The translations under genes were made by a program, and so were the position numbers. From Sphaerochaeta pleomorpha str. Grapes (GTDB taxonomy: Bacteria; Spirochaetota; Spirochaetia; Sphaerochaetales; Sphaerochaetaceae), in NCBI RefSeq assembly GCF_000236685.1, contig NC_016633.1:2542001-2606000 (forward strand): a stretch of 64,000 bases of DNA, read 5' to 3'. Below are positions 51,859-58,997 of the stretch, piece by piece (position 1 is the stretch's first letter; every line of letters starts with the position of its first letter). The notes under the pieces are model-generated. The model did not search any database. It had not been told where the DNA came from and saw nothing but the letters and a program-made list of their open reading frames with translations.

Positions 51859-54153
51859 ATGCAAACTGAGGAATTTGATGAAGGAATCAGTATCCAAGAA
51901 TTATTCCAAAGTATTTTTAGCAGGTTGTATATACTCCTTTTGATTGTTTTTATTTCTGTTATGGGAGCTTTTGTATATCTGCATTATGCAGTGAAGGAAT
52001 ATCAGACTACCGTAACAATGATAGTCGAGCCGATTGCAAGGTCTTCTACTATAGGAAAGATACTTTCTTCGGATTTCTTCAATTCTGACAAGGACATTTC
52101 TACCGAAATCCATTTGATTACCAATATTATCGATTTGGAGGCTGCTGTCCGCAGACTGGACCTTTCAACCTAAAAGAACAGTAAGGGTATCTCCTATGCA
52201 AACCCCTCGGCCCTCGGGAGTCTGCAGAGCAAAGCGTCCATACATACTTTCAAGGACACAAACATCGTTGAGCTGACCATAACGGATGAAAATCCTCAAT
52301 TTGCAGCTGATTTTGCAAATGCTTTAGCCAGTAATTTCAATGAAATGCTTTCTATGTATGGGAAAGAGTCAAAGATAGCACAAATCCAGTTCTTGCAGGA
52401 GCAAATACCAGCTACCGAAAAGCAACTGGATGAAGCTAACGACAGGCTGTTTGATTACAAGGCACATACAGGAATCGATTTCCTCTCAAATAATACAGCC
52501 TCACTGGTGAATCACATCTCCTACCTACAAATGAGGAAAAAGCCCTTACAGCTTCAAATCGTCAAGAGCGAGGCTCTTTTGAAGGGTTTCCAGGAGGCTT
52601 ACCTCTATCAGTTGCCATTCCTCGAAGTCTATGGGAAAGATGATGCCATACAAGAGATTGTCAAAATTTATGGGATGGCGTTCGATGAATTGATTCAATA
52701 TGATGTTGTTTCAAACAATGATTATCGTAACACCACCTCCCTTTCGGTTATAAACAGCAATATCAATGAAAGTGTCAATGATCGAATTACGACGCTGAAT
52801 CGCCAGATGTCTGAGTCGAGAAAACAACTTACAAAAAGGGTGAATACGCTTGTTCTGGACACAGGGATAATCGGTACTGATAGGTATACTGATTATTATC
52901 ATACCCTTGATAACTATTGTTTTACGGTAGTTGATACAATCTGCAATGACGTGGATATAGTCAACATCACAAAAACCATTGAAGTATTTCAAGAGGAATT
53001 CAATAAACTGCCGATATTGGAAAAAGAGCTATCAAAACTGCAAAGTGATGTTGATTCCTTTGAATCCATCAGAAAAGAATTGAATTCCCTCTTGCAGCAG
53101 ATAACCCTTTCTGCAGCTGCACAGAACAACAATGTTAAACTTGTGACCCCTGCTAAGATTCCTCTCCATCCGGTAAGTCCCAATTCGCTTTTAATTGTGG
53201 CAGTAAGTATCTTGCTCGGAGGGGCACTAGGGGTATTGCTCTGTCTGTTCCTCGAGATGAAAGACGATTGCCTGCATTCGCTTGAAGAGATTAGAAAAAT
53301 AGCGGGCCCTAGCATCCCTCTGCTTGGATGGACCCCCCTGATCGAAATCAAAAAGAATTCAGCCAATAAAATCTCTATGAATACACACTATAAGAACCAA
53401 GGGAGCTATATTGCAGAACGCTATAAAACGATTACCTCTAATTTGCTCTACGGAAAAAATAGTGATAAAAAAGTGTTCTTGATAACAAGCAGTACTATTA
53501 ACGAAGGGAAAAGCAATCTTACCTGCAATGTCTCCCTCTATCTTGCTCATTTGGGGTATCGGGTTTTACTAGTCGATGGAGATTTAAAGACTCATTCGAT
53601 TGGTAAATTCTTTGGTTTGGAAAAAGATACGATAGGGTATGTCGAGCAAATCCAGAAAGGAGGGTCCTTGGAGGCTATCTGTATCAGTCCAGTGAAGGAA
53701 CTGGATTCGCTTCATGTCTTGATTCCTGGAAAGACTCCTTTGATTCCTTCAGTATTTTATTCGCAGACCAACTATGCGACAATTTTCGAAGCCTTGGATA
53801 CGAGCTACGATTATATCTTTATTGACGCTCCTCCCCTAGCATATGCTTCAGGCCTCATGGGGCTGCTCGAACAAGTTGATGGAATTCTACTGTGTGTAAG
53901 GCTGAGCATCTGTTCGAAAGCAAATCTAACCTTTCTCATTCAGCAATTGGAAGAGAAAACGACTAAAATCGCGGGAATCATTGCCACTGGCTGTGCCCTT
54001 GCAAAAATAGAGTCCTATACCAATACCTATGATTATTATCACCAGGGGAAACATGATAAAGATTCCCCGGATTTTGAGTATATAAAATCAGAGAGAAAAG
54101 CAATCAAGATGTTTAAAAAAGATTTGAAGGAAAAGCGCTATGCTGGCGAATGA
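51859..54153 (+). pseudogene. Wzz/BY-kinase exopolysaccharide protein, interrupted by in-frame TAA
   Basis: The frame opens at ATG 51859 with MQTEEFDEGISIQELFQSIF, TM1 (RLYILLLIVFISVMGAFVYL) and a Wzz-type periplasmic domain, but stops at TAA 52171 after LDLST. The same frame continues KNSKGISYANPSALGSLQSK without another stop to 54153, 764 codons in all. The rest contains coiled coil, TM2 (SLLIVAVSILLGGALGVLLC), and a cytoplasmic kinase: Walker A SSTINEGKSNLTCN (about 545), Walker A' VLLVDGDLKTHS, Walker B YIFIDAPPLA and a Tyr-rich tail (YTNTYDYYHQ). It should control polysaccharide chain length and export by tyrosine autophosphorylation. The stop would separate TM1 from the rest. Confidence 0.85.
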
Positions 54154-54256: not shown

Positions 54257-55282
54257 TCAAAGCAGGAAAATTTCTTTGTCTATGAAAAGGTTTACCAAGT
54301 CAGGGTCGAACTGGCTACCCGAGCAGAGCTTAAGCTCCTCTAGGGCAATTTCCGTAGGCAAGGCTGAGCGGTAGGCCCTGCTGCTGGTCATTGCATCATA
54401 GGCATCAGCTAAAGTGACTATACGTACCTCAAGGGGAATCTGGTCTCCTTTGAGTCCGTCAGGGTAGCCCTTCCCGTCGATTCTCTCATGGTGGCTTCTG
54501 ATAATCGGTCTGTATGGCTGGAAGAGTTCTATATGGTTGATAATCCGATCGCCGAAAACAGGGTGCATCTTGATGATTTCATACTCTTCCTTTGTGAGGG
54601 ACGTGGTTTTATTTAGGATTTCCTCTGATATGCCTATCTTACCAATGTCATGAAGCAGTGAACCGCCTTCGAGGGTCAAGATATTCTCATGAGAAAAATT
54701 AAGAGCTTTGCCCATCGCCACGGAAATATTCCTAACCCGGTTGCAATGACCTTTGGTATATGCATCTTTCTGCTCAATGGTCTCGGAAAAGGCTTCCAAG
54801 GTTGCCAATGTTGTGTTTTTCAAAGTAAGCAGGGCTGATCTCAATTGCTCCTGGAGATCTCTCTGGTTGGCCAGGGAATTGTTTTTCTGGTCAAACTCCA
54901 GTTTTTGCACGGTAGACTTATCGATTACCCGTTCTACACAGGAAATCAAAGCTTCCCGCAGAACCGGCTTGGCTAGGTAGTCGGAAGCGCCTAGACGCAT
55001 TGCTTTCATACCGGTATCGAGGTCGCTGAAAGCTGTAAGCATAACGACCGGTATGCTTGGATACCGGTGGCGAATGGATTCCAGTACCTCGAATCCGGAT
55101 GGCCCGGGCATTTTTATATCCAGGAGAATGAGGTCAATACTCTCTGATTCGGTTTTGAGCAAGTCAAGCAACTCATTCCCATTCGTACAGAGGGTGACTT
55201 GGTACCCTTCTTTCTTTAAGAGTATTTGCAGGATTTTTCGGATTGCAGGATCATCATCAGTTGTTACAATATGTTTAGCCAT
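54257..55282 (-). CDS. Response regulator with HD-GYP phosphodiesterase output
   Basis: The 341-residue protein has an N-terminal receiver (residues 5-120) with acidic pocket TTDDDPAIRK, phosphoacceptor Asp in LILLDIKMPGPSGF and the conserved Lys in ASDYLAKPV. The C-terminal HD-GYP domain (about 150-341) has HCNRVRNISVAMG, GSLLHDIGKIGIS and HHERIDGKGYPDGLKGDQI. HD-GYP proteins degrade c-di-GMP to GMP. The kinase-like protein at 55878 is a plausible partner. The start has CGGAG upstream. Confidence 0.93.
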   Translation of the reverse strand: MAKHIVTTDDDPAIRKILQILLKKEGYQVTLCTNGNELLDLLKTESESIDLILLDIKMPGPSGFEVLESIRHRYPSIPVVMLTAFSDLDTGMKAMRLGASDYLAKPVLREALISCVERVIDKSTVQKLEFDQKNNSLANQRDLQEQLRSALLTLKNTTLATLEAFSETIEQKDAYTKGHCNRVRNISVAMGKALNFSHENILTLEGGSLLHDIGKIGISEEILNKTTSLTKEEYEIIKMHPVFGDRIINHIELFQPYRPIIRSHHERIDGKGYPDGLKGDQIPLEVRIVTLADAYDAMTSSRAYRSALPTEIALEELKLCSGSQFDPDLVNLFIDKEIFLL

Positions 55283-55314: not shown

Positions 55315-55821
55315 TTATATAAAAAAGTGTGTTTCTTTCTTGTATTCTTCATATTCAGAGAACATTCTTGGGAAAAAAATCAAATCCTCTATCAGTATCA
55401 GTAGCAGATTGCAGGCCGTGAAACCGATACAGAGCAAGGTTATCTTAAAATTCCAGAAATATACACCTATCAATAAATTAATCATTGTAAACCAAATAAA
55501 ACCCGGGTGTCTAGAAATACTATAGGTTCCACCTCGATAGAGTTTTCCTGTTTTTTCTGCTTTTAGGGGAATTTCGAGAAGAACAGAATAGACTAATAGT
55601 ATTGAAAAAACACCTATAAGAATGATTGTTGCCCAGATGGCAATCAATGAGAGCGGTGATTCGTGGGTAAAGAATAGTATCGGGTAGGGGATGGGGGTGA
55701 TGAAAAAACCTAGATAAAAGACCCTTTTCAATACAGGTTTTTTATATACGATTGCCAAATCGTAAAGCCCTGCGAGGAAATATCCTATAGCACCTAGAAA
55801 AAATAGTTTGATTAATTCCAT
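55315..55821 (-). CDS. Isoprenylcysteine carboxylmethyltransferase-like membrane protein
   Basis: The 168-residue protein (start MELIKLFFLGAIGYFLAGLY; an ATG at 55854 is the alternative) has four to five TM helices. The C-terminal signature is YSISRHPGFIWFTMINLLIG followed by EDLIFFPRMFSEYEEYKKET, which matches the ICMT/phospholipid methyltransferase family (RHPxY...E...Y..Y). It probably methylates a lipid or small membrane-associated molecule with SAM. Divergence from the sensor kinase gene by under 60 bp suggests a functional link. Confidence 0.65.
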   Translation of the reverse strand: MELIKLFFLGAIGYFLAGLYDLAIVYKKPVLKRVFYLGFFITPIPYPILFFTHESPLSLIAIWATIILIGVFSILLVYSVLLEIPLKAEKTGKLYRGGTYSISRHPGFIWFTMINLLIGVYFWNFKITLLCIGFTACNLLLILIEDLIFFPRMFSEYEEYKKETHFFI

Positions 55822-55877
55822 GATTTGTCCAATAATAATACAGATAGCTATCATTTGAAAGTAAAAAAGGATTTTCC

Positions 55878-58800
55878 ATGATCATTGATATCTCTACCAT
55901 TATTCCTGCAGTCGCTTTCATCTTATATGTTTCTTTTTTTATCTTTGGATTTTTACAGTATAAGAAAGATAGATTTTATTGGTCGTTCCAGCTCTACATG
56001 CTTTTTGTATCCATCTGGAGTTTTGGTTCCATGATGATGCATCTCAACAGTGTATATATGACACCGTTGTTCTGGAACAAGGTTATGCTCGTCGGTTTAC
56101 TTTCGGTTCCGTTTGGATTGGTCAACTTTATCGTCGACATCCTTGAATTGCATAAAAAGCCAATCAGGATATTCACTACTGCAAGTTATCTTTTCCTCAT
56201 TCCCCTCATGATCTTCAACTTTTCCGGAAATATCGTCAATGATGCCGGCTTCACTTCCGACGGCGCTTTCTTTTACCAGCTTGCCCCTGGCGCTGCGTAT
56301 GCCTATTCCATAAGTTATGTCTATCTGATTCTCACTCTAGTAATCCTGTTGCTTGGTTCAAAATCCAGTTCCCCGGAAAAATATAAAAACAATGTGATCT
56401 TGCCGCTTATCGGAATGGTCATTATGCTCATCGGTATTTTTATGAATATCTACCCGAGACTCGGGAAATACCCTATCGATATATTTTCGGCCACCATCAA
56501 TGCGATGTTGCTTTTCTATACCATCTAGAAATACAGGCTTATCAACTACTCTCGTATTGGTCTGAGCATAATCTTTTCTACTATCCTTGCAATCGTTGCC
56601 TCCTTCTCTTATTACGTTATCATTACGTTTATCCAGAGCTTTAACAGTGATTTTGCACCGGGCAATGTGTCCCAGCTGGCAACGATTCTGGGAATCGTAA
56701 CTGTCATCATTATCCATCCCATGAGAAATATGCTTGCCTTCTTCGTTGATACTATCATTATACCCAAGAGGCATCCTTATCAGGCAACTATCAAGAATCT
56801 CAGCCAAAAGCTGACAACTATCGTAGACCTCAAGGAACTTGGCGAAGAAGTCGTCAAAAACCTTAGCTCTGGGCTTAAAACCGAATGGGTAGTTTTTGCT
56901 GTCAAGCAAATTAATGATAATGACCGGTTTTTGATGATCGCAAACAGTAAATGCCCTACAAAACTCAAAGTAGATGATCCGATAACTTTTTCATTCCCCC
57001 AATATGTGGACGAGAAGTTGCAGCGACTTAGAAGGGAAAACGTTTCCTCTATTCTCAATGTCAGTCCTGACGAGCAAAAGATGCAGGTGAGTGCCCAACT
57101 TCCCCCCGCCGATGTGCTCATCCCGCTTGTTTTCAGGAAACAGATTGCCGGCTATATCCTGATCGGATATGACTACACCAAATCCCTGATAACAGAGATT
57201 GAAGTGGAAGCTTTAGAGATTTTGGCTGCGCAGAGTTCGCTTTCCCTTGAAAACGCCCTTTCGTTCGAGAAGTTGAGAATCCAGGGTAACGAACTGACGA
57301 TGAGCAAGAATAAACTGGAGGCAATCTTCAACGGCATTGCTTCTCCCGTTTGCCTAATCGATATTGATTATACGATACAAGAGGCAAATTCGGCAGCCGT
57401 AACGTTCTTTGGCAATAACAAAAAGGATTTGATCGGCAATAAGTGCTATAGGGCTTTCTTCCACCGTACCAGACCCTGTCCTTTCTGTAAGGCCCTTGAC
57501 TGCCATCACAGTGGAGTAGTCCAAGAGACAGAAGCCGATGTTTCAGACAAAATCTATTCTTTTCAATATCATAACGTACTGGTTCCCGAGAATTCCAAGA
57601 GTGTTTTCATTGAAATCATCAACGATATTACTGAACAGAAACACCTCCAGGAAGAACTTGTGCGCACCGAGAAGATGGCAGGCATCGGGACTTTGGCTGC
57701 CGGTATCGCCCATGAACTTAACAACCCCCTTGCCGGGATCTCGGGTACGGCAGAGATAATGCTGTCAGAGGTTCCCCAAGACAGTGAACATCATGAATAC
57801 CTTGAGGATATCCTTTCCTATTCGAAGACGGCTGCCGATGTAATCAAGGAGCTTTCAATATATTCGCGTAAAGAGGTCAGAGAAATCCAGGAAGTTGAAA
57901 TTGTCAAAATCCTGGAGTTCTCCCTTCGCCTTGCAACCAGGGGCATCGATTCCCAGAATATTACTATCAAGCGGAATTACCATGCCCTCCCGTTCATCGA
58001 GGCAAACGAAGGGGAAATGCAACAACTTTTCCTTAATCTTATTGTAAATGCTATTCAAGCAATGGAAGGAAATGGGACTCTGACCCTTACTTGCATGGAG
58101 AAAGATGGTTTTGTATTTATAAAGGTGGCTGACACAGGGTGTGGTATCGCGGAAGAGAATCTCAACCAAATATTTACGCCTTTTTTCACCACGAAAGCCC
58201 CAGGTACCGGTACAGGTCTTGGACTTTCTAACTGTTACGGTATAGTAGAAAAAATGGGGGGTAGAATCAGAGTGAAAAGCGAAGAACACGTTGGATCAGA
58301 ATTTACGACAATTTTCCCACTGAGTGAAGCGGGAAGAGATGCTATTCATTTCTCCTTGGTCACGGACCAAGCAGGATTGAATGATGTTTTCTTTATCCAG
58401 AGGAAAGTCTTGGTTGGGGAAAAAGGCTATATGGAAGAGACTATCCATAGGCCTGAAGACGAGAAAGCCACGCACATCCTTGCCTTCAAGGGATTGCAGC
58501 CGGTAGGGACTGTTTCTTTGATGACCTCAGAAGTTTTTTGGCCATTGCCAATATCCAAATACTTTGATATTGAGTCATGTCTGCATTCGCGCAACTGCTC
58601 GGAGATTATCCGTCTGGCTGTTTTGCCTGAGATGCGCAACACGACAGCCTCCATTGGTCTTTTGATCCTGATCTTTTTGCTGGCCCGCAGCAAAGGGGTG
58701 GAGAATTTGATCATCGATGTGTTTGCCGACGATGAAAAGACAATCAAGCTCTATAAGAAATTTGGCTTTATCGAGGTGGGAACCTACAATTCACCGGATG

Positions 58801-58997
58801 CTGTCACTGTCTTGGCTCTGCAGAACAAGTCCACCCTGGAAACCGACCAGAGTCAGCTCAGACATTTTGTAAAGCCGCTTTTCAAGAGACTGCGTACGAT
58901 GTTCGACTTTGGCGATTACACTCAGCTTGTACTTGAGGAAATGGACAGAATCCTCAGTGAAGATGTTGAAATCGAGAAAGACGAGATGTCTGTGTAA
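55878..58997 (+). pseudogene. 7TM sensor histidine kinase fused to GNAT/acyl-synthase-like domain, interrupted by in-frame TAG
   Basis: From ATG 55878 (after AAGGATT) the frame encodes seven TM segments, stops at TAG 56526 after ...LLFYTI, and continues in frame as KYRLINYSRIGLSIIFS without another stop to 58997 (1039 codons). The natural boundary of 7TM kinases reads YxIYxYRL, so a Tyr codon probably became TAG. Downstream are a GAF-like domain (about 310-480), a PAS domain with CYRAFFHRTRPCPFCKALDC, and HisKA with His in GIAHELNNPLAG (about 611). HATPase follows with [18 protein letters not shown] and [10 protein letters not shown]-terminal domain (about 820-1039) has EIIRLAVLPEMRNT and TIKLYKKFGFIEVG, a GNAT fold like FeeM-type N-acyl synthases. 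Confidence 0.85.

Follow-up and report, generated by a model that had tools for sequence, protein, structure and literature searches.

A GNAT/FeeM-like domain fused to a 7TM sensor histidine kinase suggests a self-contained chemical signaling circuit in spirochaetes

In the window analyzed here, a stretch of 64,000 nucleotides of the Sphaerochaeta pleomorpha str. Grapes genome, we found a gene in which a 7TM sensor histidine kinase continues into a GNAT/FeeM-like domain. The fusion and its neighbors suggest a self-contained chemical signaling circuit in many spirochaetes. The explanation that best accounts for the whole, to which we assign a probability of about 0.42, is that a FeeM-like acyltransferase fused to the kinase works in an Rpf-like circuit with ICMT-like and HD-GYP neighbors. 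In S. pleomorpha the kinase gene is broken by a TAG codon, and the circuit is cut in that genome. The gene is organized as follows:

55878..58997, + strand: gene of the 7TM-PAS-HisKA-HATPase-GNAT/FeeM-like sensor kinase, interrupted by TAG at 56526; intact orthologues of ~1040 aa are present in relatives
55878..56525, + strand: HisKA_7TM membrane sensor region, 216 aa, before the stop (PF16927, E 3e-13)
56526..56528, + strand: in-frame TAG at the site of a Tyr codon in relatives, invariant where relatives cover the site
57309..57641, + strand: PAS domain of the kinase (PF00989/PF13426)
57690..57875, + strand: HisKA domain, with the H-box AHELNNP from nt 57708 (PF00512, E 1e-12)
58008..58325, + strand: HATPase_c domain with intact ATP-binding glycine motifs (PF02518, E 1e-24)
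58329..58823, + strand: GNAT/FeeM-like acyltransferase domain (PF21926 and PF00583 above cut-off; AlphaFold2 pLDDT 85)
58602..58613, + strand: E-I-I-R on strand beta-4 (Glu 58602-58604, Arg 58611-58613), found in 32/32 sequences
58824..58967, + strand: C-terminal two-helix extension beyond the GNAT core (domain residues 174-189 and 195-210 are helical in the model)

The kinase ATG at 55878 is preceded by an SD-like AAGGAT, and the H-box motif is kept in 31/32 sequences. The C-terminal ~220 residues (58329-58994) come directly after the HATPase, and the motifs quoted for them in the original prediction (VFFIQRKVLVGEKGYMEE, EIIRLAVLPEMRNT, and TIKLYKKFGFIEVG) are in frame, in the same ORF. The prediction had also described a protein of 1039 residues. 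Such a protein does exist in relatives, where a search for the domain order, as the prediction had proposed, recovered the same order as a single frame of ~1040 aa; in S. pleomorpha, the TAG at 56526-56528 ends the frame that opens at ATG 55878, and the copy consists of a 216-aa 7TM fragment and an open frame of 822 codons (PAS-HisKA-HATPase-GNAT).

Most members of the genus carry the fusion, and it recurs in other families of the same class as well as in further classes of Spirochaetota. Among the 393 sampled Spirochaetota genomes, 14 strong matches to the fusion were retrieved, with frames of 1035-1141 aa except for the broken S. pleomorpha copy, and no free-standing close homologue of the domain was seen. 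The scan of 84,980 species by short exact peptides, a method that covers relatives outside Spirochaetota poorly, returned spirochaetes only, and the plasmid collection gave no match. No description of a kinase-FeeM fusion was found in the literature searched, which excludes most subscription papers.

FeeM-like sequences were also observed in other arrangements. In another spirochaete, a FeeM/Acetyltransf_5 protein stands alone and matches LuxI weakly (L099:1438-2307, + strand), and two proteins (L095:1-2112 and L105:1-1998, both on the - strand) unite FeeM-like, cyclic-nucleotide-binding, and SAM methyltransferase parts. The L095 protein adjoins a cyclase-like membrane protein and the L105 protein a phosphatase-like one (neighbors assigned by eye).

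Two Pfam families matched the C-terminal domain of the S. pleomorpha protein above their cut-offs: FeeM (PF21926), with 29.9-32.9 bits versus a cut-off of 27, and Acetyltransf_1 (PF00583), with 26.8-29.7 bits versus 20.7. These scores, with the recurrence of the domain order in relatives, show that the resemblance is not accidental. PF21926 was matched by 13/13 aligned members, with a best E of 2.3e-15 and scores of up to 53 bits in other members. The LuxI family profile Autoind_synth (PF00765) was absent from 13/13 members at E<=0.1, and the PEP-CTERM/exosortase acyltransferase profile TIGR03694 remained below cut-off, appearing in 2/13 members only (best E 0.042). PF13444 had no match in the S. 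pleomorpha genome (one 3.59-Mb contig).

The AlphaFold2 model of the domain was built on 13 sequences and its structural matches were ranked within Foldseek's best 1000 chains. Among these, the top match was FeeM 2g0b (Z 17.1, rmsd 2.9, 173 aligned residues), tied in fold score by the plain GNAT SACOL1063 (5jph, Z 16.8). The AHL synthases RpaI (Z 14.9 over 186 residues) and BjaI (Z 14.6 over 177) rank after these two, yet they cover more residues (177-186). The viral structure library returned general GNATs only, including a phage AHL synthetase-like protein. The resemblance to FeeM-type or GNAT enzymes put forward in the original prediction is borne out by both Pfam profiles and by 2g0b as top structural match; of its comparison with FeeM, LuxI, and GNAT, the FeeM part stood as the top fold match, tied with a plain GNAT, and the LuxI profile PF00765 was unmatched. 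The GNAT fold is present in the model and the key residues, as assigned by motif and position, are not lost, the two points on which that prediction could have failed.

On the basis of motif and position, we propose that E-I-I-R corresponds to the catalytic Glu of FeeM/NAS proteins and to E101-x-x-R104 of LasI. The catalytic Glu of NAS proteins is Glu95 in FeeM and Glu103 in Nas354, and the change of Nas354 Glu103 to Ala led to the loss of the surface-active and haemolytic phenotypes (PMC4897644). A review names FeeM Glu94-Gln97 and LasI Glu101-Arg104 among the pocket residues (PMC9654057).

The same data bear on the possibility that the domain is an ordinary GNAT acetyltransferase, which would acetylate the kinase, the regulator, or a small molecule and so couple acetyl-CoA status to the two-component output. 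Acetyltransf_1 is above cut-off too, and SACOL1063 and YjcF were the best matches in a profile search of PDB sequences, in which FeeM was not retrieved at E<=10; SACOL1063 also ties in fold score. However, the canonical acetyl-CoA pyrophosphate loop R/Q-x-x-G-x-G/A was found in 0/32 sequences, and FeeM outscores Acetyltransf_1 for the S. pleomorpha protein and is also ahead of it in best E-value. We consider this reading unlikely.

The absence of the canonical CoA loop would also be coherent with a non-catalytic or slow acyl-ACP/acyl-CoA sensor gating the kinase, as would the C-terminal place of the domain beside the HATPase, without a long linker. The share of invariant positions is 27% in the GNAT/FeeM-like domain and 26% in the HATPase. 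However, conservation is densest in the domain's N-half, where 39% of the positions are invariant; this, together with the Glu and Arg of E-x-x-R, both invariant, fits catalysis. A non-catalytic or slow sensor seems to us improbable, and we retain the FeeM-like acyltransferase as the preferred reading.

Upstream of the kinase, the window contains the other members of a three-gene module:

54257..55282, - strand: response regulator with HD-GYP output, putative c-di-GMP phosphodiesterase (PF00072, PF13487; HDIGK, HHE, DGxGYP)
55315..55821, - strand: integral membrane protein of 168 aa with the ICMT fold, a putative carboxyl methyltransferase (AlphaFold2 pLDDT 90.5)
55822..55877, no strand: divergent intergenic region of 56 bp between the ICMT-like and kinase genes

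The promoter scan gave background level only. The conservation of the module was counted on the 32 distinct loci whose upstream sequence was long enough. The divergent response regulator-HD-GYP gene is present at 31/32 kinase loci, and the ICMT-like gene lies between regulator and kinase at 29/32, the other three HK-FeeM loci having no adjacent copy. Among the aligned regulators, HDxGK and HHE are present in 30/30 and DGxGYP in 28/30.

The top four structural matches of the ICMT-like model (4quv, 5vg9, 4a2n, and 5v7p) all have the ICMT fold. The sterol reductase 4quv, of the same fold, reached Z 12.0 and the three ICMT entries Z 8.8-9.9 (5vg9, 9.9; 4a2n, 9.4), values of moderate weight for an all-helical fold. 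This fold is common to sterol reductases, and the methyltransferase label is putative. The ICMT-like proteins share the invariant pattern GTY...RHPGF...D..FP..F, which we take to be of the ICMT kind. With PF04140, the S. pleomorpha copy scored 17 bits against a cut-off of 24, and 8/12 relatives matched weakly at E<=0.1 (best 1.7e-5); the search of PDB sequences with the ICMT-like profile gave no match.

The search of Spirochaetota with the ICMT-like profile also returned a parallel module. Four genomes (L129-L132) have no fused enzyme at the ICMT-like locus: there, a GH3 protein of ~530-555 aa and a 7TM kinase without the GNAT domain come after the ICMT-like gene. In a fifth genome (L179), which has a fused kinase as well, a GH3 gene adjoins a 7TM kinase gene and the ICMT-like gene is on another contig. 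The 7TM domains of the fused and the GH3-linked kinases are homologous (E down to 1e-21, ~26-33% identity). The GH3 proteins (PF03321/PF23571/PF23572) are above the Pfam cut-off in L129-L131, and the nucleotide-binding motifs TSGRSGEY..K, YG(S/C)TE, and RY(I/V)(I/L)GD, compared with PMC12493201, are readable in L129 and L131. N-acyl ornithine is the product of the GH3-like enzyme OlsH (PMC12493201). The FeeM-like and GH3 families, both known makers of N-acyl amino acids, have no relation to each other and occur in one gene context. Their exchange is our best evidence for an N-acyl amino acid product, as an association and not a proof. An ordinary acetyltransferase leaves both the ICMT-like neighbor and the GH3 gene of the parallel loci unexplained, and the exchange with a GH3 enzyme argues against a mere acyl sensor as well. 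Because of these neighbors, namely the HD-GYP regulator, the ICMT-like gene, and the GH3 alternative, the suggestion of the original prediction that one protein would link sensing to signal production has become likelier.

The product could instead be a structural or protective aminolipid rather than a signal, with a kinase that controls the state of the membrane or is controlled by it and has a c-di-GMP output. The product of OlsH is an amino lipid of bacterial membranes (PMC12493201), and both the 7TM and the ICMT-like parts are membrane proteins. Nevertheless, the fusion of enzyme and kinase and the fixed pairing with the response regulator-HD-GYP fit signaling better than bulk lipid synthesis, and we regard an aminolipid of this kind as distinctly unlikely.

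In the signaling circuit that we prefer, the FeeM-like domain would attach a fatty acyl group to an amino acid or a similar amine, the donor probably being acyl-ACP or acyl-CoA, and its product would be used or regulated by the same 7TM kinase to which the domain is fused. We hold the chances of N-acylation of an amino acid by the fused domain to be roughly even. Where relatives have kept the gene intact, the carboxylate of the product would be methylated by the ICMT-fold neighbor, a capping step that we advance tentatively. The 7TM domain would sense the product or a related lipid; that the product is sensed by the very protein that makes it is somewhat doubtful. The kinase would then phosphorylate the divergent response regulator-HD-GYP, and c-di-GMP would be lowered. 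The analysis establishes the fold, the Pfam assignment, the residues retained, the conserved association of the genes, and the GH3 alternative; we infer the direction of kinase signaling, the ligand, and the product.

A more specific form of this circuit would be quorum sensing or self-sensing, in which a single chain serves as both receptor kinase and synthase. The FeeM-like domain would make the signal, an N-acyl amino acid methyl ester whose cap is added by the ICMT-like protein; a parallel version would rely on GH3, and the output would be c-di-GMP hydrolysis. This form is, in our estimate, rather unlikely. If true, autoinduction would be the property of a single protein, the extreme of the RpfC-RpfF contact, and the GH3 version would represent an independent test, since both versions are expected to give the same product class.

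Regarding the interrupted gene of S. pleomorpha, we evaluated the tRNA content of the genome. ARAGORN was run on the loci covering the 50 tRNA-family matches, of which the weakest yielded no gene. No tRNA with a CTA or TTA anticodon was found among the tRNAs of the genome, and tRNA-Tyr has the GTA anticodon only; recoding of TAG 56526 by a suppressor is unsupported. A long-decayed pseudogene was rejected as well: the protein distance shows no clear rise, and pN is ~0.12, far below a saturated pS. Given this strong constraint and a branch without clear acceleration, the TAG is therefore apparently a recent lesion, or else a sequencing error.

Two further lesions were observed. In another genome of the same genus (G019, single contig; locus L240), there is a one-base insertion near the codon of kinase residue 160, in the 7TM region; it is independent of the S. 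pleomorpha TAG, so that two separate lesions fall in the same sensor region. Within the window, the Wzz/BY-kinase gene at 51859-54153 has a single in-frame stop, a TAA at 52171-52173, where 11/11 relatives have Tyr. It sits 4.4 kb from the kinase TAG, and both are Tyr-to-stop changes; their closeness may point to adaptation in the laboratory or to errors in the sequence.

Rpf is among the closest known systems and is similar in circuit design. RpfC senses DSF, signals to the HD-GYP protein RpfG, and physically binds the synthase RpfF (PMC5391125). The spirochaete module likewise has a membrane histidine kinase, a response regulator-HD-GYP (31/32 loci), and a candidate synthase of a lipid signal. 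Unlike in Rpf/DSF, this candidate is a FeeM-like GNAT and is covalently fused, the 7TM sensor is of the PF16927 type, and there is an additional ICMT-like gene. No RpfF-type synthase is present in the three-gene module; the synthase differs from RpfF, and Rpf is therefore an analogy and not a membership.

The AHL synthases of the LuxI family (BjaI, RpaI, LasI) share with the spirochaete domain the general fold, which takes in part of the C-terminal region, and E-x-x-R, whereas the domain has no PF00765 match and the three-gene module has no LuxR-type partner. As for OlsH, other spirochaetes have a GH3 enzyme next to relatives of the ICMT-like and 7TM-kinase genes; unlike the fused domain, the GH3 enzyme is ATP-dependent and encoded by a separate gene, the two enzymes are unrelated, and OlsH itself acts in the ornithine-lipid synthesis of a planctomycete. 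The predicted product type, an N-acyl amino acid methyl ester, resembles the N-acyl alanine methyl esters (NAMEs) of Roseovarius, whose synthase genes are unknown (PMC11580390); no product chemistry for these spirochaetes was found in the literature.

FeeM/NAS proteins (2g0b, Nas354) are a close counterpart of the domain itself, with the GNAT fold (Z 17.1), a Pfam match above cut-off, and a Glu on beta-4 whose correspondence is proposed from motif and position. They differ in that the spirochaete domain, at 15% sequence identity, forms the C-terminal end of a histidine kinase of the 7TM type. In Nas343 and Nas354, the NAS domain is linked to c-di-GMP via a PilZ-like domain (PMC4897644). Combinations comparable in kind to the spirochaete fusion already exist in these NAS-PilZ proteins (PMC4897644) and in the FeeM-cNMP-methyltransferase proteins described above.
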